Below, in pieces: positions 2,994-62,104 of a stretch of DNA of 64,000 bases (positions are counted from its first letter, which is position 1; each line of letters opens with the position of its first letter). This stretch comes from a virus. Where the stretch lies: the IMG/VR virus record IMGVR_UViG_3300013114_000583, positions 62,001 through 126,000 of that record. One strand, given 5' to 3'. The translations under genes were made by a program, and so were the position numbers. The notes below the pieces were generated by a model. That model did no database searches. It saw only the letters and a program-made list of their open reading frames with translations, and was not told where the DNA came from.

Positions 2994-4580
2994 CTAAGTA
3001 GGTTCATATTCTATAATAGACACTTGGGTTGTCAATAAAACCTTTGTAACAGACACGGCGTTCTTTAAGCTAACCCTTGTCACCTTAAATGGATCAATAA
3101 TTCCTGACTCGAACAAATTGCAATTTTCCAGCGTAAGAAAATTATATCCCTCCTCACTAGATAATATACTTTGTGTTTCCTCTTCAGATAAGCCAGAATT
3201 TTTAGCCATAATAACTATAGGATATTTCAAAGACTTCGACATAATACCAACAGCAACAGATTGTTCCTCAGTCAAGCCTAGTTCCGACGGGCCAAGCGAA
3301 TCAAGTACATTACTACAAAATTTAAAACAATTGCCGCCACCCTCTACAATGCCTTCTTCCTGGGCGGATTTAACAGCTTCTAGAGCATCTTCTATTCGAT
3401 GTTTTTTTTCCGTGACCTCAAGATCAGAATTTCCACCAACTTTTATGGTTGCGACACTACTCTGAAGCTGAACCAGCCTTTTTGTTAGATTTTCAGCCTC
3501 ATTTGTAGTGGGTGCTGCTTTAACCAGAGAAGTCAAGTGATCTATTTTCGATAGTATTTCTTCTGTCTTGCCTTCTCCACCTATAATTACTGTATTTTTG
3601 TTCGTGCACCTTATACTTTTCGCGGATCCAAAATTGGCGAGAGTCGCTTGATTTATTTTATCGCCATTGGCGCGTTGAAAGAACTTCGAACCAACAGAAG
3701 TCGCTAAATCTTCCAAAACATCACGACGGTCGTGACCATAACCAGGAGCTTTGATTGCGGAGACTTTCATGGTGCCCCTGACAGAGTTCATTATCAGAGC
3801 CGCCAGCGCTTGACCCTCGATGTCTTCACAAACAAGTATAAACGGGCGCCCTTCACGGGCGACGATTTCAAGACTAGGCAAGATCTGATCAATTGTTTCT
3901 ATCCGGGAATCAGTTACCAAAAACATTGGGTTTTCATAAAAAAGAGTTCTTTTTCTCTCATCCGTTATAAACGACGAAGAGACGTACCCAGCATCAAGGC
4001 GAAACCCCTCTAGCAAATCAAGCAATGTCTCAGATGTTCTACTTTCTTCTATCGTTACAGAGCCCTCATACCCAACCTTATCTACTGCAAGAGTTATTAA
4101 ATCACCAATAGATTCATCATTATTAGATGAAACAGTCGCAATCCTTCTTATATCCTCTAAATCAGTAATCTGTCTAGACTTTTCCTGCGCCAAGTTCAAC
4201 ACATGCGAAGTAACAACATCAAGTCCCCTGGCTAGCTGTATGGGAGAAAGATTAGGATTTTCAAGCATTGCTTCATAAGAATTTTTTAACAAAGCATAAG
4301 CAAGAACAGTTGAAGTAGTCGTGCCGTCGCCAGCCTCAATGTTAGTCCTCTTCGACACTTGTTTTACAATAGTAGAGGCAGCGTCTTCGGTCGGGTCTTC
4401 CAAAGAAAAATGAGATGCCACAGTAACACCGTCTTTAGTTATAAATGGTGGGTGTTGAGAGGTTCTTATAAGGACATTGCGGCCGCGCGGGCCAAGCGTG
4501 GTGCCCACCGCATTCGAGAGTTTTTCCACCCCCGACAAGAGCTTAGAAAATAATGGTGCACCCTGATCAACTTTTTTCAT
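2994..4580 (-). CDS. groL: Chaperonin GroEL (Hsp60)
   Basis: A 528-aa group I chaperonin that folds proteins in an ATP-driven double ring. It aligns over the full length: the LSNAVGTTLGPRGRNV start (21-36), KDGVTV (49-54), the ATP-binding GDGTTT (84-89), the apical domain, a catalytic aspartate in RIEDAL at 398 (the same number as E. coli Asp398), then EGGG and GIIDPFKVTR near the C-terminus. The flexible GGM tail is missing; it ends VSIIEYEPT. It has its own sigma70-like promoter and follows ClpP and a 657-aa unknown. A GroES-like partner is at 18144-18467. It probably folds phage structural proteins such as the capsid protein, as host GroEL does with gp31 in T4. Confidence 0.95.
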   Translation of the reverse strand: MKKVDQGAPLFSKLLSGVEKLSNAVGTTLGPRGRNVLIRTSQHPPFITKDGVTVASHFSLEDPTEDAASTIVKQVSKRTNIEAGDGTTTSTVLAYALLKNSYEAMLENPNLSPIQLARGLDVVTSHVLNLAQEKSRQITDLEDIRRIATVSSNNDESIGDLITLAVDKVGYEGSVTIEESRTSETLLDLLEGFRLDAGYVSSSFITDERKRTLFYENPMFLVTDSRIETIDQILPSLEIVAREGRPFILVCEDIEGQALAALIMNSVRGTMKVSAIKAPGYGHDRRDVLEDLATSVGSKFFQRANGDKINQATLANFGSAKSIRCTNKNTVIIGGEGKTEEILSKIDHLTSLVKAAPTTNEAENLTKRLVQLQSSVATIKVGGNSDLEVTEKKHRIEDALEAVKSAQEEGIVEGGGNCFKFCSNVLDSLGPSELGLTEEQSVAVGIMSKSLKYPIVIMAKNSGLSEEETQSILSSEEGYNFLTLENCNLFESGIIDPFKVTRVSLKNAVSVTKVLLTTQVSIIEYEPT

Positions 4581-6612: not shown

Positions 6613-6623
6613 TTAATAATTAG
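6613..6623 (-). promoter_or_regulatory. CTAATTATTAA motif, copy 1
   Basis: The minus strand reads CTAATTATTAA between the clpP stop codon and the start of the 657-aa gene, 13 bases before its ATG. The same 11-mer occurs before the tape-measure and sheath genes. It may be a phage promoter element, but here it overlaps the stop codon and ribosome-binding site, so the evidence is thin. Confidence 0.2.
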
Positions 6624-7285
6624 ACTATTACGTCAGCTATTCCATACTCAATTGCTTGTTCTGCAGATATATATATATCAATGTGCTTATTTAGCATTTT
6701 TAAAATCTTTTTCCTGGTCAGTTCTGTTTGTGCCTCCAAGCACTCAATGTAGCGATCTTGAATCCATTTAACTTCTTTTATCTCATTTTCGACGCTAACC
6801 AAAGAACCATGATAACCAGCCATGACATTGTGAAGCATAATTCTGCAATTTTTACCAATCTTTCTATGTCCCTTGGTTCCATTGGCCAAAATCAAAACCC
6901 CTGCTGACATTACCTTCCCTAAACCAATGGTGCTGATTTCGCACTTTGTTTTAACAACTCTCATTAAATCATATATGGCAAACATATCAACAACAGAGCC
7001 CCCATATGTTGAAACATACATGTCGATAGGCCTTAATGGCTTGGTTTCTTTTGGGTCAATGGCTGGCGGGGAGCAACCGGATGCCAAATAAATTAAAGTA
7101 CCCAAAACCTCTTCTGACTTTTCTTCAGTTATGTCTCCGATGAGCCCAACTGACCGAGACGTCTGAGAATTTTCAGGAGTAGGCATGTTATTTATTATAA
7201 CAATTTGGTTTTCATTTACCTCGGAGACAGAAGCCTCCTCCGGGGATTCCGGTTCCAGGGTTGGTTCCTTCGGTTTTTTTGGCAT
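6620..7285 (-). CDS. clpP: ClpP-family serine protease
   Basis: A 221-aa ClpP-like peptidase. After an acidic, Pro-rich leader (1-40), the ClpP fold follows: PIDMYVSTYGGSV (86-98), the nucleophile Ser127 in GKVMSAG, His152 in IMLHNV, and Asp203 in HIDIYISAEQA followed by EYGIADVI. All three catalytic residues are at the expected places. ClpP forms a barrel that degrades unfolded proteins delivered by an AAA+ unfoldase such as ClpX; no phage unfoldase is visible, so host ClpX/ClpA may be used. The separate prohead protease (54193-54795) makes a head-maturation role less likely. GAGGAAAA precedes the ATG. Confidence 0.88.
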   Translation of the reverse strand: MPKKPKEPTLEPESPEEASVSEVNENQIVIINNMPTPENSQTSRSVGLIGDITEEKSEEVLGTLIYLASGCSPPAIDPKETKPLRPIDMYVSTYGGSVVDMFAIYDLMRVVKTKCEISTIGLGKVMSAGVLILANGTKGHRKIGKNCRIMLHNVMAGYHGSLVSVENEIKEVKWIQDRYIECLEAQTELTRKKILKMLNKHIDIYISAEQAIEYGIADVIV

Positions 7286-8329: not shown

Positions 8330-8637
8330 AAATCACCATTCTCTTCCTCTAAAAGAGAGTAAAGTTGCTCTTTTTCCTCCTCGGACATGGAGTACTTCGC
8401 TACATTCTTGATCCCTTCAGAGTACGCATCCAAGCTAAGAGCGACACGACTTTTACTAAAACTACTGTCCAGTTCCATCACTTCTTTGAGGACGATTTCA
8501 AAAAAACTAGGATTATTAATATAAAATTCAACCAACCGACCAAGAAGCTTTTGTTGACTCAGGCCATCGTGGCGAAGTTTAATTTTAAAATCTACATATT
8601 CTTTCTCGCCAATATGAAAGGATATCGTTCTTTTCAT
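8326..8637 (-). CDS. Ribbon-helix-helix-like protein
   Basis: A 103-aa protein whose first 45 residues fit a ribbon-helix-helix DNA-binding domain: a polar strand ([13 protein letters not shown]) and two helices (VDFKIKLRHDGLSQQKLLGR and LVEFYIN). The second half is acidic and helical. It overlaps the upstream gene as ATGA and the downstream sigma-4-like gene as GTGA, so the two regulators are translated together. The RHH assignment rests on pattern and length only. Confidence 0.5.
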   Translation of the reverse strand: MKRTISFHIGEKEYVDFKIKLRHDGLSQQKLLGRLVEFYINNPSFFEIVLKEVMELDSSFSKSRVALSLDAYSEGIKNVAKYSMSEEEKEQLYSLLEEENGDL

Positions 8638-9707
8638 CGTGGCCCTAAAATATGGGTATGACTCTCAGATTGTCCAGCAGAAGTTTGTATAACGAACTCG
8701 CACTTCTGCCTTAGCTCAAAAATAGTTCTAGCCCCACTATAAGATAACCCTGATTTCAAGTTTGATTCCAAGTCCTTTAAAATATTGATAACACTGCCCT
8801 TATAAGGTATCGTGGTTGAGATCCCTTCCAGGGAAGTAGCAAACCCCCTCCATTCTTCCTGAGCTTCTACGGACGCCATCCCTCTATAAACTTTATATTT
8901 TTCTCCTGTCTTTTTTTGAAATATTGTACCAGGAGACTCAGTTGTGCCAGCCAACATAGACCCAAGCATTACAAAATCTGACCCACTGGCCAAGGCTTTA
9001 ACAGCATCTCCGGAAGATCTTATTCCCCCATCAGCAATAATAGCGGCAGGCTTAAAATCAACCCCTGTCTTTTCTTGTGTTCCTCTCGCTATGTGACATG
9101 CCATTATTGATTGTAATGTCGGAACACCATGGCCAGTTTGAGTCCTCGTTGAGCAAATAGACCCGCCACCTATGCCAACTCTCACCGCGTCCGCCCCCCA
9201 GTGAGACAAGTCTATATACCCTTCTGGCATTGCAACATTTCCTGCTATAATATAAACTTCGCTACCGAAAATATCCCTAAAAGATTTAATCGCCCTTTCC
9301 ATGAGGGAGTGGTGGCCGTGGGCGATATCTAAGCACATAACCCTTGCTCCCGCATCCCAGATAGCAGTAGCCCTATCAATGTAATCTCCTGTGACACCTA
9401 CCGCGGCGGCGGGGCGCTGGGATTCTTGCAAGACGTCTTGAACCATTTTTACTTGATCATCTATTGAACAATATCTGTGAATGATCCCTAAACCACCATG
9501 CTTGGACATAACAGCAGACATGGCCGGACCCGTGACCGTATCCATAGGACTGGACATGATTGGTAGCCTAAATTGGATATCTCTTAAATCCGAATATAGA
9601 TCAATCTCTTTCCTGCTCTCGATGTTGCTATACTTCGGAACCATCAATAAATCATCGAAACTTAAAGTATATTTAAAAATATTTGTTGTTGCCATCTTAG
9701 TTAACAC
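8634..9707 (-). CDS. guaB: IMP dehydrogenase/GMP reductase family enzyme without CBS domains
   Basis: A roughly 357-aa TIM-barrel purine enzyme. Visible: [13 protein letters not shown] near the N-terminus, [11 protein letters not shown], the catalytic-cysteine loop [47 protein letters not shown] and IPYKGS. The CBS (Bateman) pair of most IMPDHs is absent. The segment where IMPDH has its mobile flap and Arg-Tyr pair is short ([20 protein letters not shown]), closer to GMP reductase in length, so GMP-to-IMP reduction is a real alternative. [11 protein letters not shown] favours IMPDH. The GTG at 9707 overlaps the upstream stop and has GGGGAG at 8 bases; an ATG at 9695 is the other possible start. 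Confidence 0.85.
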
Positions 9708-9925
9708 TATTCTATCTCCCCGAAGCAAGACGGACACGTCAATTTGATTTTTCCATTATTATTTTCCATGTGCCAATCATCAATCTTTTCTCCCTCAATG
9801 GTATTCGGAATTCGAAAACAACCAGTACACATAACTGACTTTTCAAAATTCTTCATTGTTTTTTTAAAATTCTTAACAAACTCCTTCTGTTTAACCCTTC
9901 TGAGTTTTCGTTCTAAGGACGCCAC
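9707..9925 (-). CDS. Small zinc-ribbon protein
   Basis: A roughly 72-aa protein. The basic helical first half (LERKLRRVKQKEFVKNFKKT) is followed by CTGC at about 35-38 and CPSC near 66-69, a four-cysteine zinc ribbon. I prefer the GTG at 9925, which has GGGGG seven bases upstream, over a TTG at 9931. It sits between dUTPase and the Gua enzyme and overlaps both neighbours. Function unknown; a nucleic-acid-binding role is plausible. Confidence 0.6.
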   Translation of the reverse strand: MASLERKLRRVKQKEFVKNFKKTMKNFEKSVMCTGCFRIPNTIEGEKIDDWHMENNNGKIKLTCPSCFGEIE

Positions 9926-10384: not shown

Positions 10385-13300
10385 TTATGCTAACAGTTTA
10401 AACATTTTTCTAACGGACCTAGTGCTGAAGCCCCATTGCGGATCATAATTTAGGCGCGCCATGTATGGCCTGTTTACAAATATTAAATCCCTCTCCGGAT
10501 TCACGCCCCAGCATCTTATATTATTTGCCTCATTGTTGCTATCTATAACATTCACAACATAGAAGGCCTTTCCATTTTTAGTTTTCTTTTTTTTGACTGA
10601 TCTTGGTATAAACCAGCAAACTCCCAAATCTGAATCATACTCACTTATAGGTGGTATAAATTTTTCGGCCAACTTCTTTTGCATCTCTGAAGTAACAACC
10701 AAAGACATTGGAAACATCCCTGTCAATTCTACCAAATTAGATATTGTCTCTTCGTGTGAGAATTCGCCCTCTTCCTTATACATGTCGATATTCGCAATTA
10801 AATTCTTTTCTTTCCTTGGCCGGTCAACAGCCACAGAAAACCAAAAGTGTTTTCGCCCAAGAAATCTATCATCCATCAACGAGTCGAGGGCCCCTGAGCG
10901 CACCAATGCATCTATAGATTTCTTATTTAATTTGCTATAAGTTATGTTTTCATTAAATAAGAAATTTTCAATCGAAGAGAAGGGCCGGTTTGCCAATATC
11001 TGCTCTATTGCAGCTTCGCCTAAACCCTTAATCGAAGTTAGAGGTTGGACTAATCTCTTTTCATCGCTCCCTGTTACAGCCCAAGTTGCTCCCGAATTAT
11101 TTATATCAACCTTTTCAATAGCAAAGCCTTGTGACTTGGCTAGATTAATAGCGCGCTCTTTCCGTGTATCCGGCTCTTTGTCTAAGAACGCAGCAGTCCA
11201 CTGTGCAGGATAATAGTTCAGAAGCCACGCGCACTGAAAAGACAAAACACAATAAGAAACTGCGTGAGATTTATTAAACCCGTAGCCGGAAAAATATTCA
11301 AATTTCTCCCAGAGTTCGCGCGCTTGCCATTTAGGCATGCCCTTCTCAATACACCCTTCACGAAATTTAAGCCAAATTGAATCTTTTTGCTCCTGAACTT
11401 CACCGGTGCCCTTCTTTGTTAAAAGTTTTCTAAGTTTATTACCCTCATCAAGAGACAGATCTTTGCCCAACTTGTGAGCCAACATGGCAATCTGTTCTTG
11501 AAAGATTAAAAACCCATAAGTTTCCTCTGTGACTTCTTTAAAAATATTATTGGTATAGTTAATTTCAGAAGGATTTTGCTTAGCACCAATAAACATCTTG
11601 TCTACGCCGGCTGATAAAGGGCCTGGCCTATAAATTGAAGTAATGGCTGCTAAATCTGTTATATTGTCGGGCTTCACTTGCTTGCAAAAACTTTGAGCCC
11701 CAACTTCAGTAAACTGAAAAATGCCCGTCCACTTTCCTTTGTGAAAAACATTCTTCCAAACTTGTGAATCACCCAGGTCCAAAACCCCGGGGTTTAAGTG
11801 CTTATCATAAAAGTCCTTAACCTGCTCAAAAGACGGATTTTGAATTCCTTTTTCTTTTTCCAGAATAAGTTTAATACATACTTCCATCATACGCAAAGAC
11901 GCAAGGCCCAAAATATCAAACTTTATAAATCCCATAGGTTCCAAGTGCCTAACGTTTTGACCCTCGGACCAAGGTGTTTGTCGAACACCTCCGGAATTAA
12001 TCAGCGGCATCCATCTATCGAGATTCTCCCCCACAACAACACCACCAGCATGGCGTGAAGCGGAACGGACTTGACCGTATAACTTGCTGATGTGTGTCTT
12101 TATGTGCGGGTATTTTTTTAAGAATGCTTGCAAGGTCTCGGAGTACTCCATCAGTTCTTCGAAAGAAGGAACATAGACGCCAGCCGTTATCCCTTTCGCT
12201 TTCTTTGCTAAAGGGGTAGCCTCATAAACCATCTTGCTGGTAACATTATTAACTTCTAGAAACTCAATACCATAAAACTTAGATACATCCTTTATAAGAG
12301 ATCTGAGCTGTAAGGTGTTCCAGTTTGTAATTGGGACAACCGTATCGTCACCCCATTCCTCTATAAGCCTCTCTTTCAAAAGCATTGGTTCCGACACATC
12401 ATAGTCTATATCTGGATAACCAGAACCACCAGATGTCAAGAACCTCTCAAATTGCAAGTCGTATTTTATTGGATCAATTTGTGTGATATCCAAAACATAA
12501 GACACTAAAGCGCCGGCGGCGGAGCCGCGGCCAGGACCAACCAGCTGTGTAGACAGGGCACGGTCGGAGATAGATTTCATCGTTAAAAAGTATTTGCTAA
12601 AGCCTCGGGAGCCTATTACTGATAGTTCTCTTTTTATTCTCCTTACGTATTCCTTATTGTTGTGAAGGTTTTTGTCTCTAAGGCCGTGAGTACACAAAAC
12701 CGCTAAAGCTTGGTCGGGCGTTGATCCCTCCGGAACGACAAAATCTGGCAACCTCACCGTGTTATCCGGCAAAAAAGATTCTATACGCTCATGAGCAATT
12801 TCATAAGTTCTGGTAATTGAATTTTTCACCGTCTCATCATCATACTTAATCCCCAATTCCGAAGAATATTTGAGATAGGAATCCCACATTTGGTCTCCGT
12901 TCTTTGGGTATAACTCATAGCCAACCTCTTCAACAGTAATAGGCAGCTCCTCAGACATATAATCTGGCTTGCCTCGGCCGAGCCACCCAAGTCTTTTATA
13001 CAATTCTCGATCCTTCCACACAGTAGGGTCGTAATAGTGAGAATCTGCAGTTGATATGAGCTCAATGCCAAACTCCGTACTCATCTGAATAATATACTGG
13101 TTCAAGACGTGTTGCTCAGGTACGCTGTTCCACTGTAATTCTCCATACCACCTATCCCCGAAGATAGAGATCATCTTTTGCGTAGTTTCACGCATAGCAT
13201 GTAAAACGGCATCTTCTCCGTCCTCGCGGTGCTCCCAATAGTTGCCAGCATAGATGCCGCCCAAGCATGCTGAGGCTGCGATGACTCCCTTGTTGTGCTT

Positions 13301-13810
13301 TTTAAGCAAAGAATAATCCATCCTGGGATATCTATAAAAATTATCGCCGGAATAAGATTTCGAAATCATCTTAAAGATATTTTGTAGCCCCTCTTGATTC
13401 ATCGCCAGTAAAATTAAATGTCTTCGTCGGTTTAAAGAAGATTTTATTTTCTTTTTGGAAGCCTCATTCTCAATCGTCGTACCGGAGGACCGGTCCTCAT
13501 ACTCAGATTTTTTTTTGGCTGCGGCCTTGACTTCTTCGTACTCTTTTTTCCAGTTTGCAACTGAAGGCACGAAATAAGCCTCACAGCCAAAAATTGGTTT
13601 AAAATCTTTACCTTGAATTTTCATTTTTTTAGCATGCAAGACTTGATACGCCAAGCCATTAGCATTACCATGATCAGTCAAAGCAAGGGCATCCATGCCA
13701 TTACTATATGCGTAATCCATATGCTCTTGTGGGTACCCCAAAGCATCAAAAGGTGAGCCGGCCACTGAATGTGCGTGCAGGCCGACAAAGGGTATAGAAC
13801 TATCACTCAA
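10385..13810 (-). CDS. dnaE: DNA polymerase III alpha subunit (C family), PHP domain intact
   Basis: A 1141-aa bacterial-type replicative polymerase. The PHP domain (1-260) keeps all nine metal-ligand positions of active PHP exonucleases: H12, H14, D22, H47, E77, H131, C182, D256, H258; E. coli has lost several. Palm: GPGRGSAAG (425-433) and YPDIDYDV (465-472) with the catalytic aspartates, then HAGGVVV, KFDILGL, YRPGPL, and GYGFNKSHAVSY followed by the YPAQWTAAFL segment in the fingers. A helix-hairpin-helix (TSIKGLGEAAIEQI) follows; the C-terminal OB and tau-binding region is short, so length is slightly under E. coli (1160). No beta-clamp gene is visible. The start is a TTG overlapping the upstream stop (TTGA) with GTGGAG before it. 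A family A polymerase is encoded separately. Confidence 0.95.
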   Translation of the reverse strand: MSDSSIPFVGLHAHSVAGSPFDALGYPQEHMDYAYSNGMDALALTDHGNANGLAYQVLHAKKMKIQGKDFKPIFGCEAYFVPSVANWKKEYEEVKAAAKKKSEYEDRSSGTTIENEASKKKIKSSLNRRRHLILLAMNQEGLQNIFKMISKSYSGDNFYRYPRMDYSLLKKHNKGVIAASACLGGIYAGNYWEHREDGEDAVLHAMRETTQKMISIFGDRWYGELQWNSVPEQHVLNQYIIQMSTEFGIELISTADSHYYDPTVWKDRELYKRLGWLGRGKPDYMSEELPITVEEVGYELYPKNGDQMWDSYLKYSSELGIKYDDETVKNSITRTYEIAHERIESFLPDNTVRLPDFVVPEGSTPDQALAVLCTHGLRDKNLHNNKEYVRRIKRELSVIGSRGFSKYFLTMKSISDRALSTQLVGPGRGSAAGALVSYVLDITQIDPIKYDLQFERFLTSGGSGYPDIDYDVSEPMLLKERLIEEWGDDTVVPITNWNTLQLRSLIKDVSKFYGIEFLEVNNVTSKMVYEATPLAKKAKGITAGVYVPSFEELMEYSETLQAFLKKYPHIKTHISKLYGQVRSASRHAGGVVVGENLDRWMPLINSGGVRQTPWSEGQNVRHLEPMGFIKFDILGLASLRMMEVCIKLILEKEKGIQNPSFEQVKDFYDKHLNPGVLDLGDSQVWKNVFHKGKWTGIFQFTEVGAQSFCKQVKPDNITDLAAITSIYRPGPLSAGVDKMFIGAKQNPSEINYTNNIFKEVTEETYGFLIFQEQIAMLAHKLGKDLSLDEGNKLRKLLTKKGTGEVQEQKDSIWLKFREGCIEKGMPKWQARELWEKFEYFSGYGFNKSHAVSYCVLSFQCAWLLNYYPAQWTAAFLDKEPDTRKERAINLAKSQGFAIEKVDINNSGATWAVTGSDEKRLVQPLTSIKGLGEAAIEQILANRPFSSIENFLFNENITYSKLNKKSIDALVRSGALDSLMDDRFLGRKHFWFSVAVDRPRKEKNLIANIDMYKEEGEFSHEETISNLVELTGMFPMSLVVTSEMQKKLAEKFIPPISEYDSDLGVCWFIPRSVKKKKTKNGKAFYVVNVIDSNNEANNIRCWGVNPERDLIFVNRPYMARLNYDPQWGFSTRSVRKMFKLLA

Positions 13811-14601: not shown

Positions 14602-15292
14602 CAAAGAACCTCACCTTTTCCGTATCCTCGTATAACGAAACCCCCCTTTTAAAGATATCTCTTCTATAACAATTCAAATCTAAATTTAAATGTATCTGAT
14701 TTCCTGAATTATCAAATCCATTCTTGCGTCCTAGGTGCCCCAAATCAACCAACCTATTTATGAGCTTAAATTTGGCATAAGTATCGGAATATTCTAAAGA
14801 ATTGAGCTGCTCTTGTGTCAAAAAAGATTTAGATATGCAAACCTTATTAAGTCCTGGTACGTCAAACCAGATCTTCTTCATAAAAGGTTCATCAGCATTC
14901 ATCTCCGCAGTTGGCAGAAAATCTATAGAATCTAGCGTAAACCAATCATAAACTAAAAAATTCTTTTTTTCACCAATATAAGAAGAACACTTAACCACCA
15001 GATTTTCTGTATCTGTCACCAAGCATTCTTCGAAGTGCACATCAAACACCTTGTTGTTTTTTAATAAAATTGCGGCATGGTCCTCGTTTAAAGTAATGCT
15101 CCTAACCTTATTAAAAAATAATGCTTTACCGCTAATGTTAAGGTCAAAAACCAATTTATTAAATTCCTCATGCTCTTTTTCCATAAAAAAAGGAGATGCC
15201 ACGACGGTAGATACAATAAAAGAATCATCTCTTTTATTGACCTCTCTCAGGGCTCTTATACTGAAGCCAATAAATAGTTGTTTTACAAACAA
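14591..15292 (-). CDS. Unknown 233-aa protein
   Basis: A soluble protein with mixed alpha/beta composition. The N-terminal segment (QLFIGFSIRALREVNKRDDS) and later strands (EECLVTDTENLVVKCSSYIG) give no family I recognise. The only in-frame start near the upstream gene is TTG (15292), which overlaps the stop of the lipoprotein gene; the next Met is at residue 37. It is paired by overlap with the nucleotidyltransferase-like gene, so they may act together. Confidence 0.45.
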   Translation of the reverse strand: MFVKQLFIGFSIRALREVNKRDDSFIVSTVVASPFFMEKEHEEFNKLVFDLNISGKALFFNKVRSITLNEDHAAILLKNNKVFDVHFEECLVTDTENLVVKCSSYIGEKKNFLVYDWFTLDSIDFLPTAEMNADEPFMKKIWFDVPGLNKVCISKSFLTQEQLNSLEYSDTYAKFKLINRLVDLGHLGRKNGFDNSGNQIHLNLDLNCYRRDIFKRGVSLYEDTEKVRFFDEE

Positions 15293-17460
15293 ATACCAAG
15301 ATTCCAGTCATATAGAATCTCGCGGCGTCGGACGAGGGCGTAACCGTGATAAGGCAATGAGGGAAAATGTATCATTGCGCCGGCATCATCCCCCTCTTCT
15401 TCTTCTTCTTCTTGGCGGTTGTTGATACAGGCAGCCTCTTCAATGGCTTCCGTAATTGTATCTGTGATCTGCTGAGCATGCTGAATGCCAAAACCAGCCA
15501 ATCCGTCAGAGTGCACCGCGCCGAAATCGATGAGTGGTTGATAGCTCCAGCTATTTTGAGGATTACCAATTATAAATACCATTCCATTCGCATGAGCCAT
15601 GGCGCTAGCTGCAGCATGATTGTTAAACTCGGCGCCTTGCGCTTGCTCATCCCCAATGACAATAACTATGCGATGAGTGTATTCGCGGAGATCGACCTCC
15701 CACGCATCTTCGATACCCTGAATTTGTGCCGCTGGGCGGTTAGTGCTCCATAGAATGTTATCGTCGATGCCATCGTGATCCCAGTCAATTCTATCATCGG
15801 TAAAGAATTTTCCAATTGCATCTAATGTGTTCTCGGTCGAGCCCCCCTGGTTGATTGTGCCTGCTCGCAGATTTAGTCTCAAAGTATTGACAGCATTAGC
15901 CATATCTTCAATGGGCACTACTGGTGGATCTTCTACGCCGGGGACGCAAGTGTCCCCAGGGTAGAACAAGTAAGGATCTGGCATCTCATCGTTGCCAACC
16001 ACGGCTAACATATAACACACATCCACTACACCATCATTGAATAACCTTTGTACTGAATTTCGGGTAGCATCGAATGCGATACCTAGCTCTCCCTGGTCCA
16101 TGGATCCAGAGACATCCACCACCATCATAACTGCTACGCTGCCCTGTAAGAAATCTTCGTCTGCTAGGCCATCACAATCATCATCTTCTTCATTGCATCT
16201 CTCTACACCGGGGCGAATTTCTTGCTGACAGTCAAAATACCCATACTGCATTACGCCTTGAGCATCGCGGCGGGATTCGCAAAATGCGGCACCAAGGCGG
16301 CATTCGCCAGCAACATATTGGGGGCCATCTTCGCGTTGTGCATATGTTAATACCTCGTTTGTAAGTAAATCTGTGGAGCATAACATTGACAACGGGCCGC
16401 CATCCGGGCCTTCATCAATGAAACCATCACAATCTTCATCCGCGCCGTTGCACCTCTCTGGCTGAGGGACGTAATCTGGATGATCACAAGCACAGACCTC
16501 GTCAGCGAAGTCTTCGTCTATATTTCCATCACAATCGTTGTCCATGAAATCACACAATTCACGCGGGAGGGCTCCGCATTCGCCACAAGCATTCAGTAGT
16601 CCCTCATCAATCTCGCCGTCGCAATTGTTATCAACCCCATCACACACTTCGATAGGATCTTCTCCGCATTCTCCACAAACATTCAACAACCCCTCGTCGA
16701 TGTTGCCGTCGCAGTCTTCGTCAAAATGACCGCCATCACAGACTTCGACCGGGTCCGGGCCGCACTCACTACAGACGTTTAAAACCCCTTCGTCAGTTTG
16801 GCCATCGCAGTCATTGTCCCGCCCATCACACTCCTCAGCTGAAGGCAATATTTGCTGCTCACACGAGCCGTATTCATAATAAGTTTCAAGCCCGGCGTCG
16901 GTGGTCACGGATACTTCTCGACATACTGATATCCCAGACATACAGGTTCCCTCTTTCGAAGACCCAGGAGGCCCGGTATAACAGCTCACAAATAATATGG
17001 GGTTTTGAGGCTCAGCGAAGTTATCTGCTAAATTTTGATGGGACTCATTTATTTGTCCGTCACAGTCGTTATCTAATTCATCGCAAACCTCGGTTCTAGG
17101 AAAGTTAACAGGGTTACACTGAGACCAACTCGTTACAAAGCAGGTTTTTTCTCCAACAGCACAGGGACCCAAAAGGCCAGGGAGTTGACACTCTTCTCTC
17201 AGACCCAATCGTTCACAAATTTGTGGTGGGGAGGCATCGAGCTGAGCATCGGGTGGGGATGCGTCCCATTGATACACCACTCTAGAATCTTGCGAAATTG
17301 TGCCGGCGGTGGAATCATCAACAATGGAATCGCGAGTGGTGATGAGGCGGGGTGGTGCATCCTGTTGCGCATCAACTAACAGGGGCGAAGAGGTGTTGTC
17401 AGAGCACGCCGTGGTGAGGGCCCAAACAGCGCATAAGGCTATTTTTATTTTATGTTTCAT
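15283..17460 (-). CDS. Secreted lipoprotein with seven MopE-type repeats and a VWA domain
   Basis: A 725-aa exported protein unlike phage proteins. MKHKIKIALCAVWALTTAC is a lipoprotein-type signal with the lipid Cys at 19. A Ser/Asp/Pro-rich linker follows, then seven Cys/Asp repeats of the form E.CD...DNDCDG.IDEG (MopE/putative metal-binding type, Ca or Cu suspected). After the last repeat comes a von Willebrand A domain with a MIDAS motif (VVDVSGSMD) and VIVIGDEQAQG. A poly-Glu run (six Glu) precedes a short basic end. Such architectures are common in Myxococcota-like bacteria. SD AAAGGAG lies inside the thyX end, so it is embedded in the operon. GC looks higher than in most neighbours. Role: perhaps host-surface modification, superinfection exclusion or adhesion. 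Confidence 0.85.
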   Translation of the reverse strand: MKHKIKIALCAVWALTTACSDNTSSPLLVDAQQDAPPRLITTRDSIVDDSTAGTISQDSRVVYQWDASPPDAQLDASPPQICERLGLREECQLPGLLGPCAVGEKTCFVTSWSQCNPVNFPRTEVCDELDNDCDGQINESHQNLADNFAEPQNPILFVSCYTGPPGSSKEGTCMSGISVCREVSVTTDAGLETYYEYGSCEQQILPSAEECDGRDNDCDGQTDEGVLNVCSECGPDPVEVCDGGHFDEDCDGNIDEGLLNVCGECGEDPIEVCDGVDNNCDGEIDEGLLNACGECGALPRELCDFMDNDCDGNIDEDFADEVCACDHPDYVPQPERCNGADEDCDGFIDEGPDGGPLSMLCSTDLLTNEVLTYAQREDGPQYVAGECRLGAAFCESRRDAQGVMQYGYFDCQQEIRPGVERCNEEDDDCDGLADEDFLQGSVAVMMVVDVSGSMDQGELGIAFDATRNSVQRLFNDGVVDVCYMLAVVGNDEMPDPYLFYPGDTCVPGVEDPPVVPIEDMANAVNTLRLNLRAGTINQGGSTENTLDAIGKFFTDDRIDWDHDGIDDNILWSTNRPAAQIQGIEDAWEVDLREYTHRIVIVIGDEQAQGAEFNNHAAASAMAHANGMVFIIGNPQNSWSYQPLIDFGAVHSDGLAGFGIQHAQQITDTITEAIEEAACINNRQEEEEEEGDDAGAMIHFPSLPYHGYALVRRREILYDWNLGICL

Positions 17461-40270: not shown

Positions 40271-43200
40271 TTAATTAGCTTTCATATATTTAATCATCAA
40301 GTAGTCATCGGAATCGACACCCTCTTCCAAAACAACTGTCGCAGCACCAGCACTTGCGCTATGAGTATAGGTATAATCATAATCACTACTGTTGCTCTCA
40401 GTCGCTTCAATGAGCAGCTGACCATTCAAGAAAACCATGACAGATCCGGCGCCGGATACGGCACCTGCAATAGTCGCAGTTTTGGAAGAGTTGGTTAGAG
40501 CTGCAGCATTTCCTGCGCTGGAGGCCATGAAGACCTCTTGCGTTTCCTGGGTGCCAATAAAAGTTACCAACTGAGCAAGCGTCATTGTTTTGGCTGCACT
40601 ACCATCACCACCATCCTGAACCAGTATGGTATCAGTGGCGATGGTGGCGGCAGCGGCGGTCAATGCGGCACCAGCGGTGGTTGTAAGCGCACCGCATGCA
40701 ACAGTACCAAGGCCCGAAACGTTACCGCTGTCGTCAAAGGTATAGTTACCATCGGAAAAGGTGCCACTAATCGTCAAATTGCGGCCGCCGGTGATGTCAC
40801 CATTGCTGTCCAAGACCATTGCCTTGCTAACTGCAGCAGTACCCGGAGTAACACCGTCAAGAACACCAATTTCTGCAGTAGTGATCGTGGTCGAATCAAG
40901 CGTCAAGCTAGTATCGCCTGTGATAGTGCCTGTCACAGCCAAGTTACCTGACGAGGTGATAGCACCACAGCCAATTGTTCCGATTGTAGCAATATTCTTA
41001 CTAGCGTCGAGAACGACAGCCTTGCTAGCTGCAGCAGTACCCGGAGTAACACTGTCAAGAACGCCGATCTCAGCAGTAGTGATCGTCGTTGTATCAAGCG
41101 TCAAGCTAGTATCGCCTGTGATAGTGCCTGTCACAGCCAAGTTACCTGACGAGGTGATAGCACCGCAACCGACAGTGCCAAGGCCCGAAACGTTACCGCT
41201 GTCGTCAAAGGTATAGTTACCATCAGACAAAGTACCAGAAATTGTCACGTTTCTCAAGCCAGAGGCGATGTCAGCGTTGCCGTCCAAGACGAGGGCCTTG
41301 TTGGCAGCACCAGCACCATTAGTAATGCCATCCAATTTCTCAAGATCAGATTCGCTCATAGAAGCAGAGCCGATAATGAAAGAACCAACAGCAGTTATAG
41401 AACCAGCAGTGTTCAAGTCACCATCTGAATTCAAGCGCATTTTCTCTGTGGCTGCTTCAGATTTGCCGGTTGCAAAAACCAGATCAGTATCATTGGAAGA
41501 GGAGGAAAAAGCGCCATCTGCTTCTGCATAAATTGATGCAGCAACCAAAATAGCGTCAGTGCCCGCGGAATCCAACGGAGCTTGGAAATCAATCTGACCA
41601 AGCTTGTTCCCATCGACAACTGTTGTTTCAGCAGTTGATAGAAGAAGCTTTCCTGGTGTGGCTGCACCACCTCTGAGTTCTAACTCATCAGCGGACTGAT
41701 CCCATTCAAGGTAAGCTCCTGATGTATCACCGAACATTTTCACGTCAACACCTGTGTCGTTGGCACCGAAAGTTGCAGCTGCCGTAAATGTCTTCGCTCC
41801 CGTAAATGTCTGAGTCTCGCTCAAGTGAGCAGTATCAGCATCCAAATAAGCCGAAGCAACCGCAGTGCCGTTCCAAACACCAGAGGCAATCGTACCAACG
41901 CTAGTCAGACTAGAACCGACAACACTGGAGCCAAGTGTAGTTGCACTAAGAACAGAAGCATTGTTGATCTTGTAGACCTTGGTGCTGGCAAGACTCATGT
42001 TCTCTGAAGAAGTCCAGTTGTCCCCAGTATTTGCCCATTGAAAAGTTTTATCACTGTCTGAAGATTTGAGGGTAATACCGCCACCATCAACAGAAGCATC
42101 ATCGCCTTCAGAACCACTGGGAGAATGTGCAAGATCGATGTTCTTGTCATCCAGCTGGATGGTGGTCGAGTTAACTGTTGTGGTTGTTCCACTAATTGTT
42201 AAATCACCTCCTATAGTAACTCCGCCGGCAAAAGTTGCCAACTTATCACTATCCAGCCTCAATACTTCAGATTGTGAAGCATTGCCGTCTGTTGTATACA
42301 TAACTAATGCTGCACCGTTCTCGGTGCCCGACCAGGTGGCATCAGCGATAGCTTCAATTCTTGCACCTACTGTCATGGTACTCGAAGTGTCCTCTGCGGC
42401 AGCGAACTCAATTACACCTAGCCGATGATCGTCGGCTAAAGGCTGTCCATCATTAGATGCCAACCGTATGTATCCACCCTCTGTGGCACTACTTGAGGTT
42501 GAATCTGTGACTGTAATACCAGGGGTATCGATTGTCACTGCAGTCGAAGCATTGATATCAACAGTTGGAGCTGTCATATCAAGAGTGGTGCCTGAATTAA
42601 TTTCCAAGTGACCGTTAGAGGAGGCAACAATGTTTTCTTCGCCTCCACCGTCGTGAAATGATAGCTTAGAAGTAAGACCAAGAATCAGCTCATCAGCGGA
42701 CTCATCCCACATCATGAATTCACCGGTAGTATTACCGAAGAATTTGACATCATACCCATCTGTGTCAGCGCCGACAGTAAGCGTTCCGTCCAAGTCTACG
42801 GCGCCATCAATATCAACAGCGTCAAGATTAGTTGTGCCATCAACATCAATATCGCCAGAGATATCCAGATTCGCAAAGACAGAAGTTCCGGTTGAGGTGA
42901 TAGCACCACAGCCAATTGTTCCGATTGTAGCAATATTCTTGCTTCCGTCGAGAACGACAGCCTTGCTAGCTGCAGCAGCACCTGCAGTAACAGAATCAAG
43001 AACGCCGATTTCAGCAGTAGTGATCGTCGTTGTATCAAGCGTCAAGCTAGTATCGCCTGTGATAGTGCCTGTCACAGCCAAGTTACCTGACGAGGTGATT
43101 GCACCACAACCAACAGTGCCGATAGACGCAATATTACCACTACCGTCCAAGACAAGAGCCTTACTCGCAGCAGCGGTACCATTTGTGATGCCATCAAGCT

Positions 43201-45367
43201 TTTCCAAGTCAGCCTCGCTCATGGCAGCAGAGCCTATAGTAAGGCTGGTTGCACAAGTCACGGTACCGCTGACGGTTAAGTTGCCGCCAGAAGAAAGCGA
43301 CATCGTTTCTGCTGCAGCCGCGCTAGAAGCAGTCTTAAAAGAAAGTTTCGTCGCGTTGCTGGACGATGAGAAGTCACCCTCTGAAACAGCCTCAATACCA
43401 GCTGCAACCAAGATTGCGTCCGTGCCGGCCTCTTCGGCTGGTGCCTGGAAGTTGATGACACCCAATTTATCATTGGCCGCAATATCGTCGTCTCCGGTCT
43501 GTAGGGTCATTGTGAAGTATTTGTCATCAGATGTCGAGTCGTGCAGGAAAGTAAGACCGCTATCTTCGACGTGAGTCACTTTAATCTCATTGTGGTCACC
43601 AAAACTCATGACCGCTCCGTCGGCCAGGAATAAATCGCTAAATTGTAGCGAATTGGTTCCCAGAGCAGCCCCATCCTGGGCGTCAGGCACAAAAGCAGTG
43701 GTGGCTGTAATGGATGTGCCCTGAATTGTGCCTGCACTAACCATCGCCTCCACGCTAAGCGAGTTACCACTATATGTAAACCCGGAATCCGAGGTCAATC
43801 CAGAGGAACCATCATTAATTTGCACGTAACCAGTGCTTCCGTGTACAGAAAGACCTGCACCAACTAACTCCGAAACTGTAACTGTTCTCATTCTTGCATC
43901 AGTACCGCTGATGGCAACATCATATATTGCAACTAAATCAGCGGTTGCCGGGCCGCCACTCAGGGCATCAAATTTACTAATATCAACTGTAAGTTCTCCT
44001 GTAGAGCCAGTCACATTCAAGCCGCCCGCTGAGCCGGTGGCCAATTGTCTAGCACTAAATTTTGTTCTCGCCATTTCTTCATCCTCCTCTTCTAGGGTTG
44101 TACCAACTAAACTCCAACTGTACGTACTTGTTGCCGCAGTAGTAATAGCAGCACTAACTGGATCTGCCGTTGAGGGCCGATCATTTCCACCAGTAAATGG
44201 CGTAGCTCCACTAGCAGTTATTAACACTGGCTTAGTGGAAGTTTGATAATCACTTGCGGCGCCGGTCTCGACACCGCTCGCCAGAGTGACAACTATCGTA
44301 CCATCTGTACTAATAGACCCCGCTCCGGATTTTGTAACACTAGTAAACTCACCTGTATCGTTGATAGCATCATAAATCTCATTAAAGACATCTCTCCAAT
44401 CTGTTATGGAAAAACCGGTTAAATCAATTGTTGTGGTATCTTCGGTCCAAGTGTAACCAGAAGTAGGCGCAGAATAACCTGTCCCAGAAAGAACAAATCT
44501 TCTACCCCCACCAGCAGTTGGAAGCTGAATACCCCTGTACCCACTCGAAGAGTTAGTGTTACCAGCTGATGGCTGATAGTTACTCCACTCACTTGCATTG
44601 TATTCACTACTCCCTGCTGCAGTTGTCTTTACACTACCTGAACTAAACGTTAACGTAATTACACCATTTGAAGCCGGCGCTGTATAATCAACCGTACCAG
44701 TGCCTGTTGCAGCCATCGAACCACTTGTAACAGTAGGGTGCTTTGCTAATTGATCACCATTATAAGTGTAGCTATAAACACCAGGATCTTTATTGCCGTT
44801 ATATATCTTAAAATAATTAAGATACAATGTTTCAGCGCTTACAGTTTTAGTGGCAGCTAATGTTACAGAAGTGTTAGACCCAGCAGTAGCTGAATATTCA
44901 GTTGTACTAGTGCTTGTTCCAGAACCAGTTGGGTGCAAAGAATATTGAGCATAAATCTTAGCTGTTTCACTATTTGCAGCATCCGTAACTAGCGTAAAAG
45001 TAAATGCCGGTGATACTGTCGTTGTATCGCCACCCCCAGAAGGGTTGCCCGCATCCAAGTGAATGCCCCTATAGCCAACATCATAAACATAATTGCCGTT
45101 AGCTTCGAAAACATCACTAGGCTTCATGCCACTTGTAGAGGCATTTGACCTATCTGGGGCCCAGACACTAATAATAGCGCCACTTATCACAAAGTAAACA
45201 TAATGATCTTCATCCATCGTAACGGATTGAAAAGTTGATGAAAGATCATTGCCGCTAAGCAGCGCTGTTAAATCACTAAAAGATGCATATGCCGATGTAT
45301 ACTTATAGGCTTTTACTGCAGCTGATTGGCCTGACTTCAAACCTAAATAAAAAGTTCTATTTGCCAT
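40271..45367 (-). CDS. Large repeat-rich fibre/adhesin-like virion protein
   Basis: A 1698-aa protein with a Ser/Thr/Gly/Ala-rich, beta-prone composition and almost no cysteine. N-terminal residues 1-110 (MANRTFYLGLKSGQSAAVKA) look like a virion-attachment part. The body contains repeated units such as GAITSSGNLAVTGTITGDTS and LDTTTITTAEIGVLDSVT, with VVLDGSKNIATIGTIG between them, and DNA repeats to match. The C-terminus (SVMVFLNGQLLIEATESNS and VVLEEGVDSDDYLMIKY) resembles an FNGQ-type end domain seen in phage fibres. Likely a long side or tail fibre that recognises the host surface; no chaperone domain is visible. Strong AAAGGAGG before the ATG, inside a hairpin. Confidence 0.75.
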   Translation of the reverse strand: MANRTFYLGLKSGQSAAVKAYKYTSAYASFSDLTALLSGNDLSSTFQSVTMDEDHYVYFVISGAIISVWAPDRSNASTSGMKPSDVFEANGNYVYDVGYRGIHLDAGNPSGGGDTTTVSPAFTFTLVTDAANSETAKIYAQYSLHPTGSGTSTSTTEYSATAGSNTSVTLAATKTVSAETLYLNYFKIYNGNKDPGVYSYTYNGDQLAKHPTVTSGSMAATGTGTVDYTAPASNGVITLTFSSGSVKTTAAGSSEYNASEWSNYQPSAGNTNSSSGYRGIQLPTAGGGRRFVLSGTGYSAPTSGYTWTEDTTTIDLTGFSITDWRDVFNEIYDAINDTGEFTSVTKSGAGSISTDGTIVVTLASGVETGAASDYQTSTKPVLITASGATPFTGGNDRPSTADPVSAAITTAATSTYSWSLVGTTLEEEDEEMARTKFSARQLATGSAGGLNVTGSTGELTVDISKFDALSGGPATADLVAIYDVAISGTDARMRTVTVSELVGAGLSVHGSTGYVQINDGSSGLTSDSGFTYSGNSLSVEAMVSAGTIQGTSITATTAFVPDAQDGAALGTNSLQFSDLFLADGAVMSFGDHNEIKVTHVEDSGLTFLHDSTSDDKYFTMTLQTGDDDIAANDKLGVINFQAPAEEAGTDAILVAAGIEAVSEGDFSSSSNATKLSFKTASSAAAAETMSLSSGGNLTVSGTVTCATSLTIGSAAMSEADLEKLDGITNGTAAASKALVLDGSGNIASIGTVGCGAITSSGNLAVTGTITGDTSLTLDTTTITTAEIGVLDSVTAGAAAASKAVVLDGSKNIATIGTIGCGAITSTGTSVFANLDISGDIDVDGTTNLDAVDIDGAVDLDGTLTVGADTDGYDVKFFGNTTGEFMMWDESADELILGLTSKLSFHDGGGEENIVASSNGHLEINSGTTLDMTAPTVDINASTAVTIDTPGITVTDSTSSSATEGGYIRLASNDGQPLADDHRLGVIEFAAAEDTSSTMTVGARIEAIADATWSGTENGAALVMYTTDGNASQSEVLRLDSDKLATFAGGVTIGGDLTISGTTTTVNSTTIQLDDKNIDLAHSPSGSEGDDASVDGGGITLKSSDSDKTFQWANTGDNWTSSENMSLASTKVYKINNASVLSATTLGSSVVGSSLTSVGTIASGVWNGTAVASAYLDADTAHLSETQTFTGAKTFTAAATFGANDTGVDVKMFGDTSGAYLEWDQSADELELRGGAATPGKLLLSTAETTVVDGNKLGQIDFQAPLDSAGTDAILVAASIYAEADGAFSSSSNDTDLVFATGKSEAATEKMRLNSDGDLNTAGSITAVGSFIIGSASMSESDLEKLDGITNGAGAANKALVLDGNADIASGLRNVTISGTLSDGNYTFDDSGNVSGLGTVGCGAITSSGNLAVTGTITGDTSLTLDTTTITTAEIGVLDSVTPGTAAASKAVVLDASKNIATIGTIGCGAITSSGNLAVTGTITGDTSLTLDSTTITTAEIGVLDGVTPGTAAVSKAMVLDSNGDITGGRNLTISGTFSDGNYTFDDSGNVSGLGTVACGALTTTAGAALTAAAATIATDTILVQDGGDGSAAKTMTLAQLVTFIGTQETQEVFMASSAGNAAALTNSSKTATIAGAVSGAGSVMVFLNGQLLIEATESNSSDYDYTYTHSASAGAATVVLEEGVDSDDYLMIKYMKAN
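40708..41224. repeat. 46-bp direct repeat within the fibre gene (two copies)
   Basis: Positions 40708-40753 and 41179-41224 are identical by eye. They encode part of a NYTFDDSGNVSGLGTV repeat of the fibre. Spacing is 471 bases, in frame. Confidence 0.8.
40895..43099. repeat. 66-bp direct repeat within the fibre gene (three copies)
   Basis: Near-identical 66-base blocks lie at 40895-40960, 41093-41158 and 43034-43099, encoding the SSGNLAVTGTITGDTSLTLD unit. A further shared block follows copy 1 (about 40960-41000) and is found again at about 42900-42938. Spacings are multiples of three, so recombination between copies would shorten or lengthen the fibre in frame. Confidence 0.85.
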
Positions 45368-45378
45368 GTGTTTTATCC

Positions 45379-45398
45379 TCCTTTAAAATCTTAAAGGA
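45379..45398 (-). promoter_or_regulatory. Ribosome-binding-site hairpin before the fibre gene
   Basis: An 8-bp perfect stem (TCCTTTAA / TTAAAGGA, 4-base loop) contains the AAAGGA part of the fibre gene's Shine-Dalgarno sequence. Folding would hide the ribosome-binding site, so it may slow or time fibre translation. The stem is AT-rich and weak. Confidence 0.4.
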
Positions 45399-45418
45399 CT
45401 AATAGTAACAAAATAAAA

Positions 45419-45532
45419 TGAATTAAAGAGGAATAAATGAATTAAAGAGGAATAAATGAATTAAAGAGGAATAAATGAATTAAAGAGGAATAAATGAACT
45501 AAAGAGGAATAAATGAATTAAAGAGGAATAAA
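45419..45532. repeat. Six 19-bp tandem repeats in an intergenic gap
   Basis: Six contiguous copies of TGAATTAAAGAGGAATAAA (one base changed in copy 5), plus a partial seventh, between the 144-aa gene and the fibre gene. On the plus strand each copy holds AAAGAGG, then ATG AAT TAA at the junction: a ribosome-binding site with a two-codon frame. The genes lie on the other strand. Iteron-like arrays can bind initiators or regulators; no function can be read from sequence alone. Confidence 0.95.
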
Positions 45533-45548
45533 TGAATTAAAATAAAAA

Positions 45549-45983
45549 CTATTCTTTAACAAAAACAATTTTTTCTCCCGGAAGTTCGGGAATCTTAATA
45601 ATGTACCCAGACTCGGGTACGCCTTTTTCTATTCTTACAGAGTCTAACAAGCCAAAAAGCCTTTTTCTGTTTTCTTCAGATATTCTAATTAGAGCAGACT
45701 TTTGTGTTTCTGCCACAATAATAAAATCAGCCAATTGTAATTTGGCGTTAAGGAAAGCCTCTCTTGCTGCTATGATGGCCACAGTTTCTTCATCCGTGCA
45801 CTCAACATGCGAAGGAAAAATATCAGATCGAGCCTCTGCTTCTTCAACTTCTTCAGTTTCCTCAACTTCTTCAGTCTCTTCAACTTCAGACTCAGAAAGA
45901 AGTTTTTTTATAACTTCAGCATCAGGCTCTTCTCCTTCACCCATGTCATTTACTAAATTTTTTAATTTGTCTAATAAACTCAT
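45549..45983 (-). CDS. Hypothetical acidic protein with EEVEET repeats
   Basis: A 144-aa protein. A short basic helix (SLLDKLKNLVNDMG) leads to a Glu/Val/Thr repeat (EVEETEEVEETEEVEEAEA) at about 33-52, then a helical part and a closing beta-like VPESGYIIKIPELPGEKIVF. Repeats within the acidic stretch are imperfect GAA/GTT codon repeats. I recognise no family. It lies between the DUF5659-like gene and the tandem-repeat region; virion or assembly roles are possible. Confidence 0.55.
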   Translation of the reverse strand: MSLLDKLKNLVNDMGEGEEPDAEVIKKLLSESEVEETEEVEETEEVEEAEARSDIFPSHVECTDEETVAIIAAREAFLNAKLQLADFIIVAETQKSALIRISEENRKRLFGLLDSVRIEKGVPESGYIIKIPELPGEKIVFVKE

Positions 45984-45993
45984 TTTTTCTCTC

Positions 45994-46221
45994 CTATGAA
46001 AATAAAATCTTTTTTAAATTTCTAACATTATTGTCAAATTTGCAAAAATCGGAATCCAAAAATTCCAATGCTTCTGACTGGGCTGAGGACTCCGGATCTT
46101 TGAACTCAAAATAAAACTTTCCTGTCGGACCTCGATTGCAAACCATTAATTTGTAACCCTTTAATTGTAAATAGGCAGCTATCCCTATATCACTTGTTGT
46201 AAACGTGGCGGGGGCCATCAA
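45994..46221 (-). CDS. DUF5659-like small protein
   Basis: A 75-aa protein. FTTSDIGIAAYLQLKGYKLM followed by the PTGKFYFEFKD strand and ALEFLDSDFCKFDNNVRNLK matches the DUF5659 pattern (ttDlxlAayLxxxGxxl... FxF) widespread in phages and plasmids. Its role is unknown; the fold looks like a small alpha/beta nucleic-acid- or protein-binding module. An ATG-pair start with AGGAGAGAG precedes it, in a 76-base gap after the gp15-like gene. Confidence 0.65.
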   Translation of the reverse strand: MMAPATFTTSDIGIAAYLQLKGYKLMVCNRGPTGKFYFEFKDPESSAQSEALEFLDSDFCKFDNNVRNLKKILFS

Positions 46222-46297
46222 ACTCTCTCCTTGTTCCTAAGTATAATAACTAGTTTAAATGTTTTGTTTTCAACGAACAGTAAGATATTTATCACCT

Positions 46298-61752: not shown

Positions 61753-62104
61753 CCGGGTTTCCTTTCGAGGCTCGAACAACCTCCTTTATCTCATTCTTTT
61801 GCGATTCTGTAAGATTCTTTTTTTCTATTGCTAACTTTTCTTCCACATTTTCTAATGTATCTTCATATTTCTTAACCAAATTGTCTCTCATCAGGAGCTC
61901 ATCACTATGCGTACTTGTCAGGACCTCTAACTGCTCTTTATGAGACTGTCTTTTCGCCTCAATAACCTCAACTAATGCATCTGTGTTTCGACGAGTCAAA
62001 ACCCAGATCAACACAGACCAGGCTACTAAAAACGGAATTTGCCAGTGTTCCCTCAACCAAAGCCAAGCGCGAGAACACCAATTCCTAAATAATATCCAAC
62101 TCAT
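61700..62104 (-). CDS. Single-TM coiled-coil protein, Rz-like
   Basis: A 134-aa protein starting MSWILFRNWCSRAWLWLREH (ATG at 62104, AAAGGA upstream). One membrane segment (IPFLVAWSVLIWVLTRR), then a long coiled coil (VEVIEAKRQSHKEQLEVLTS, EDTLENVEEKLAIEKKN) to the end. This is the layout of Rz-type inner-membrane spanins. It overlaps both neighbours (holin-like before, exported protein after). Function assigned by architecture only. Confidence 0.5.
   Translation of the reverse strand: MSWILFRNWCSRAWLWLREHWQIPFLVAWSVLIWVLTRRNTDALVEVIEAKRQSHKEQLEVLTSTHSDELLMRDNLVKKYEDTLENVEEKLAIEKKNLTESQKNEIKEVVRASKGNPDEIKKRIEKEFGIKFVE

Follow-up and report, generated by a model that had tools for sequence, protein, structure and literature searches.

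Introduction

Several described systems make use of RNA that is poor in G or free of structure. Standby sites consist of single-stranded RNA, some 100 nt ahead of the start site, to which S1 and the 30S ribosomal subunit bind (PMC7708055), and it is A/U-rich RNA that S1 uses (PMC3858243). Rho utilization (rut) sites consist of G-poor, unstructured RNA and are recognizable as C>G bubbles with YC steps (PMC9160355). In phage T4, the gp32 protein represses its own mRNA via an unstructured stretch carrying UUAAA/UAAA repeats (PMC535899). We analyzed a window of 64,000 nucleotides (positions 62,001 to 126,000 of the IMG/VR virus record IMGVR_UViG_3300013114_000583) in which an array of 19-bp repeats precedes a giant fibre gene; a literature search found no paper combining tandem repeats, a tail fibre gene and a late promoter. 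The RNA ahead of this fibre gene resembles most the standby/S1 leaders of the E. coli genes tisB, lpp and thrS: it would be single-stranded, G-poor and U/A-rich some 50-180 nt upstream of the start codon, and it also has a possible hairpin over the Shine-Dalgarno sequence. It differs from them in being made of tandem repeats, in its position in a presumed late operon, in that the sequestering hairpin is unconserved in the group, and in being known here from sequence.

The phage and its structural module

The genes neighboring the array form a T4-type structural module encoding the portal protein gp20, a prohead protease, terminase, the major capsid protein and the sheath; a baseplate protein is also part of it, and a match to the tail-tube protein falls slightly under Pfam's cut-off. 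The nearest named relatives of the capsid protein (Flavobacterium phage immuto, Microcystis phage Mel-JY01, Rhodothermus phage RM378 and uncultured large phages) are about 40-50% identical to it. Judged by these capsid relatives, the phage would fall into Far-T4, as a region of T4 diversity has been named (PMC4360716); it is probably a distant, uncultivated relative of T4, and probably a marine one. Hundreds of IMG/VR contigs carry relatives of its structural genes. When the 144-aa protein encoded next to the array and the capsid protein were each searched alone, no relatives were found; alignments were needed to find them.

Our attempt to name a host was unsuccessful, since two genome scans led to three MAG contigs belonging to three different phyla. 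A relative of the 162-aa structural protein of the phage is encoded in a 2.85-Mb MAG that carries the label of a WOR-3 chromosome (CP070664.1, 2777161-2787640; locus L182); this match reflects either a provirus of such kind or an assembly or binning error.

Layout of the fibre locus

On the minus strand, the 407-aa gene is followed by the 75-aa DUF5659 gene, the 144-aa gene, the array and finally the fibre gene. The features of the locus are:

46242-46256, minus strand: late-promoter-like element AAACTAGTTATTATA, directly before the 75-aa gene (weight-matrix score 14.9)
46163-46177, minus strand: weaker late-promoter-like site inside the 75-aa gene (score 9.1)
45994-46221, minus strand: 75-aa DUF5659 gene, the locus marker in relatives
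45549-45983, minus strand: 144-aa gene upstream of the array; relatives at the same place are 23-29% identical
45368-45548, minus strand: untranslated spacer of 181 nt from the 144-aa gene to the fibre gene (G 4%, C 17%, T 55%)
45416-45541, minus strand: tandem array, 6.6 copies of 19 bp; gene-strand unit TTTATTCCTCTTTAATTCA, no G; variant base at 45499
45380-45397, minus strand: possible hairpin CCTTTAAGATTTTAAAGG over the Shine-Dalgarno sequence, predicted
45377-45384, minus strand: Shine-Dalgarno sequence AAAGGAGG of the fibre gene, as read from the sequence
40271-45367, minus strand: giant fibre-like structural gene of 1698 aa (matches phrog_30158 and the tail fibre of Roseobacter phage CRP-345)

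The weight matrix for late-promoter-like elements was built from 300 intergenic regions of relatives and of this phage and has the consensus AAACTATTTATTATA. Its 141 sites lie a median of 44 nt upstream of a start codon, and in the window 16 sites scoring above 8 bits are found on the gene strand and a single one on the other. By analogy with T4-type late promoter biology (reviewed in PMC2988020), these sites would act as promoters, and the element at 46242-46256 is the probable start of the transcript carrying the array. In the spacer upstream of the fibre gene, no late-promoter-like site scores above 0. With a best score of -0.7 in the spacer, compared to 14.9 at 46242-46256, the idea that the repeats themselves are a promoter or an array of late promoters was rejected. 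With promoter-like sites before and within the 75-aa gene but not in the spacer, the simplest view of the array is as an untranslated spacer within a late transcript, and the locus would be transcribed as a single late operon.

Anatomy of the tandem array

TRF reports the array at 45416-45541 with a period of 19, 6.6 copies, 98% matches and a score of 245, the top score of any tandem array in the window. The units are arranged head-to-tail; six of them span 45416-45529, a partial unit continues to 45541, and the sole substitution is a T to C change at 45499 in the fifth unit. With up to 3 mismatches allowed, seven matches to the unit (plus-strand form AAATGAATTAAAGAGGAAT) were observed, compared to 0.10 in dinucleotide shuffles, and at up to 2 mismatches the unit is absent from the remainder of the 139,834-base record. 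The array is thereby confirmed as real, as the original prediction had it; the copy number could be mis-set by assembly. Its distance to the fibre gene, previously given as 50 bases, is 48 nt when measured from the edge of the array to the start codon. The near-identity of the copies and their absence elsewhere also support the earlier proposal of a recent expansion. A check of copy number in relatives found no close relatives with other copy numbers, and the array is private to this phage.

Each unit had been described as an antisense mini-cistron consisting of an SD-like sequence followed by ATG AAT TAA, on the strand opposite to all genes. The main genes are indeed all on the minus strand, and six AAGAGG-N5-ATG-AAT-TAA strings are present on the plus strand, one of which reads AAC TAA. 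On the plus strand of the window such strings occur in the array only, and one similar string is found on the minus strand. They represent one string that was duplicated and not six coincidences; a G-free, pyrimidine-rich RNA yields the mini-cistron when reverse-complemented.

This RNA stands out on its own strand. The 126 nt of the array contain a single G, fewer than any other part of the gene strand of the window, and its mean predicted unpaired probability of 0.76 is the window maximum (0.42 +/- 0.06 over 425 sampled stretches, the next best reaching 0.62).

Fibre leaders of related phages are usually depleted in G

With the 75-aa protein as a marker we fetched 80 loci, which provided 58 distinct fibre leaders including that of the window. 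Two arrangements were found. In the first, the 75-aa gene is followed by a late-promoter-like element and the fibre gene, which makes the leader a 5' untranslated region, mostly 115-190 nt in length. In the second, to which the window belongs, a 144-aa-like gene separates the 75-aa gene from the fibre gene, and most spacers measure 61-134 nt; that of the window, with 181 nt, is among the longest in this arrangement, exceeded only by a few that are mis-set. Which of the two genes, 75-aa DUF5659 or 144-aa-like, comes first differs between subgroups (window 45549-46221; L020, L023, L025, L030), and in most loci a late-promoter-like site precedes the fibre gene only if the 75-aa gene is the second of the pair.

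A G-poor stretch ahead of the Shine-Dalgarno sequence is present in both arrangements. The median G content was 5.7% in the 33 fibre leaders over 100 nt, compared to 19.1% in 139 control intergenic regions from the same phages, which were delimited by a mechanical gene call and may include some coding sequence. The C content is unchanged (16.1% compared to 17.8%) and T is raised. Start codons are likewise less frequent, at 2.1 per 100 nt in leaders and 4.7 per 100 nt in controls. Ten short leaders in one subgroup, whose fibre protein begins with MAKTKIGTK, are an exception and are not depleted in G. An out-of-sample check of the G content yielded just two further usable leaders with a length of at least 80 nt, a number insufficient for the purpose.

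Tandem repeats of unrelated sequence recur at the leader

Among leaders of 100 nt or more, 8 of 33 contain TRF arrays with a score of 40 or more, compared to 2 of 141 control intergenic regions. Dinucleotide shuffles of each leader, by which the effect of composition is removed, gave a repeat excess at p<=0.05 in 14 and at p<=0.01 in 6 of 56 leaders; 7.7% of the controls reach p<=0.05. Since the leaders, here and in the comparison of G content, share descent, the tests overstate their independence, and the figures are to be read as a trend; the controls of the repeat counts likewise come from the mechanical gene call. The leader of L139 holds 5.9 copies of a 10-bp unit in an array with 39% C and 0% G, those of L141, L120 and L127 hold 2.7 copies of 15 bp, 3.1 copies of 10 bp and 3 copies of 8 bp, respectively, and further leader repeats are present in L115, L121 and L122. 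None of these repeat units is related to the one in the window. Matches to the 19-mer in L017 and L018 are single copies, which we estimate to be at about the level of chance, given the size of the collection. L099, with 39% identity over 400 residues, is the only other contig that has the window's type of fibre N-terminus; a derivation of the array from its spacer was considered and rejected, since the likeness disappears once the Shine-Dalgarno end is omitted.

A proposed single-stranded leader as an aid to fibre translation

From the computed anatomy of the array, the depletion of G in relatives, the recurrence of unrelated repeats and the low predicted structure, we infer that ribosomes probably load on the leader and that the leader is probably under selection. 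In the reading that we prefer, and to which we give a probability of roughly one half, a G-free, single-stranded leader would aid initiation at the fibre gene in the manner of a standby or S1-type site, and the array would be a recent expansion by slippage. Slippage would have enlarged part of the untranslated RNA before the fibre gene. Because the gene-strand unit lacks G, it can form neither G-C nor G-U pairs, and it contains neither a start codon nor a Shine-Dalgarno-like sequence; the RNA of the array would accordingly remain single-stranded and offer ribosomes a place to load. The copy number may be a mere length variant of the leader. Of the earlier proposal that the repeats are a regulator site for the fibre gene, the link to this gene stands, as the leader is G-poor and prone to repeats in relatives too; the feature would be one of the mRNA and not a DNA operator.

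A Shine-Dalgarno-occluding hairpin would be the expected partner of a standby site. The Shine-Dalgarno sequence of the window lies in a predicted hairpin, yet among the relatives such pairing does not exceed that of shuffled leaders (p<=0.1 in 13% of leaders compared to 10% of controls), and a group-wide hairpin was thus rejected. Since this pairing is not a property of the group, we do not claim a full standby system. One subgroup (L100, L110, L116, L119, L136, L142 and L154) shows a recurrent CCTGT...ACAGGAGG hairpin that covers the Shine-Dalgarno sequence of the fibre gene.

Should the preferred reading hold, the giant fibre gene in a large group of uncultivated T4-like phages is fed through a leader conserved mainly in its lack of G, an element that escapes searches by sequence similarity or covariance. 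Tandem arrays would give such phages a quick way to alter the length of the leader, and the group would offer a natural test of single-stranded leaders as drivers of translation. A single array is of modest interest; it is the recurrence in relatives that is interesting.

Alternative explanations

The most serious competitor of the ribosome-loading leader is neutral slippage, in which repeats in an AT-rich, low-complexity spacer grow and shrink during replication, and both the array and its length are functionless. We consider this possible, if on the doubtful side. The near-identical copies confined to this phage, the unrelated units of the relatives' arrays, and an array free of any recognizable protein site all agree with it; taken alone, however, it leaves unexplained both the strand-specific loss of G at normal C content in many leaders and the excess of repeats over composition-preserving shuffles. 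Neutral slippage can hold for the copy number while the composition of the leader is selected. The number of copies is perhaps neutral, and the data as a whole agree equally well with a neutral array inside a leader under constraint. At the opposite end stands the proposal that the fibre leaders are a class defined by the lack of G in which arrays arise repeatedly, and in which the copy number is a dial for ribosome loading and the amount of fibre; this we regard as unlikely.

A Rho utilization site, at which G-poor, unstructured RNA would load Rho and limit read-through into or within the fibre operon, appears improbable. The untranslated leader shares with rut sites the paucity of G, the lack of structure and YC steps, of which there are four per unit, and the array of L139, with its abundance of C and complete lack of G, would suit this function. 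However, the leaders are enriched in T and not in C, the window leader itself being U-rich with 17% C and the group falling slightly below its controls, and a terminator between promoter and fibre gene would silence the latter.

Still less probable is repression of the fibre gene by a cooperative single-strand-binding protein (gp32, for example) that would use the site as an operator and coat the leader. The phage does encode a relative of gp32, and the autorepression of T4 gp32 through unstructured repeats provides a precedent (PMC535899): here, too, short, repeated, A/U-rich and unstructured elements precede a start site in a T4-type phage. The array differs from the T4 operator in its position before a fibre gene, in its different, G-free but C-containing unit, and in that the leader of the phage's own gp32-like gene is devoid of such repeats. 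A search for RegA did not find it, which also counts against this reading. In T4, the fibre gene is not known to be a target of gp32.

Replication iterons and an antisense ribosome or tRNA decoy, both put forward in the original prediction, which is partly supported overall, can be set aside as highly implausible: the AT-rich, head-to-tail direct repeats of about 19 bp do fall within the 17-22 bp typical of iterons, and the antisense SD-ATG-AAT-TAA string is exact, but the array sits in the structural module with no initiator gene nearby, helicase, RecA and polymerases lie at 10-27 kb of the window, the cumulative GC skew falls steadily through it without the turn expected of an origin, its unit is not conserved in relatives, and the plus strand has no late-promoter-like site here and just one sigma-70-like site reading into the array, at a frequency equal to the chance rate.

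Further sequence features of the leaders and the phage

The hexamer CTCACC occurs in 7 leaders (0.3 expected) and TCACCT in 8 (0.8 expected), in leaders that are otherwise unrelated (e.g., L105, L115, L122, L128, L142, L148 and L161). Mimicry of the 16S 3' tail (CCTCTTT, TCACCTC) was rejected as a candidate, since these strings are not enriched in leaders; it does not account for the excess of CTCACC and TCACCT. The motif ACGT[TC]CGTT, often in the form GCAGACGTTCGTT, directly follows the late-promoter-like site in 18 of the 58 fibre leaders and in 0 of 300 other intergenic regions. It lies within the first 40 nt of the leader in its carriers (L101, L104, L118, L121, L129, L143 and others) and is absent from that of the window.

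The phage also encodes a chaperonin of the Cpn60 type, a protease resembling ClpP, an IMP dehydrogenase and the alpha subunit of a bacterial-type DNA polymerase III, a set unusual for a T4-type phage:

2994-4580, 6620-7285, 8634-9737 and 10385-13810, all minus strand: chaperonin, protease, IMP dehydrogenase and DNA polymerase III alpha genes

A 725-aa protein encoded at 15283-17460 of the window (minus strand) carries four metal-binding motifs of the MopE type.
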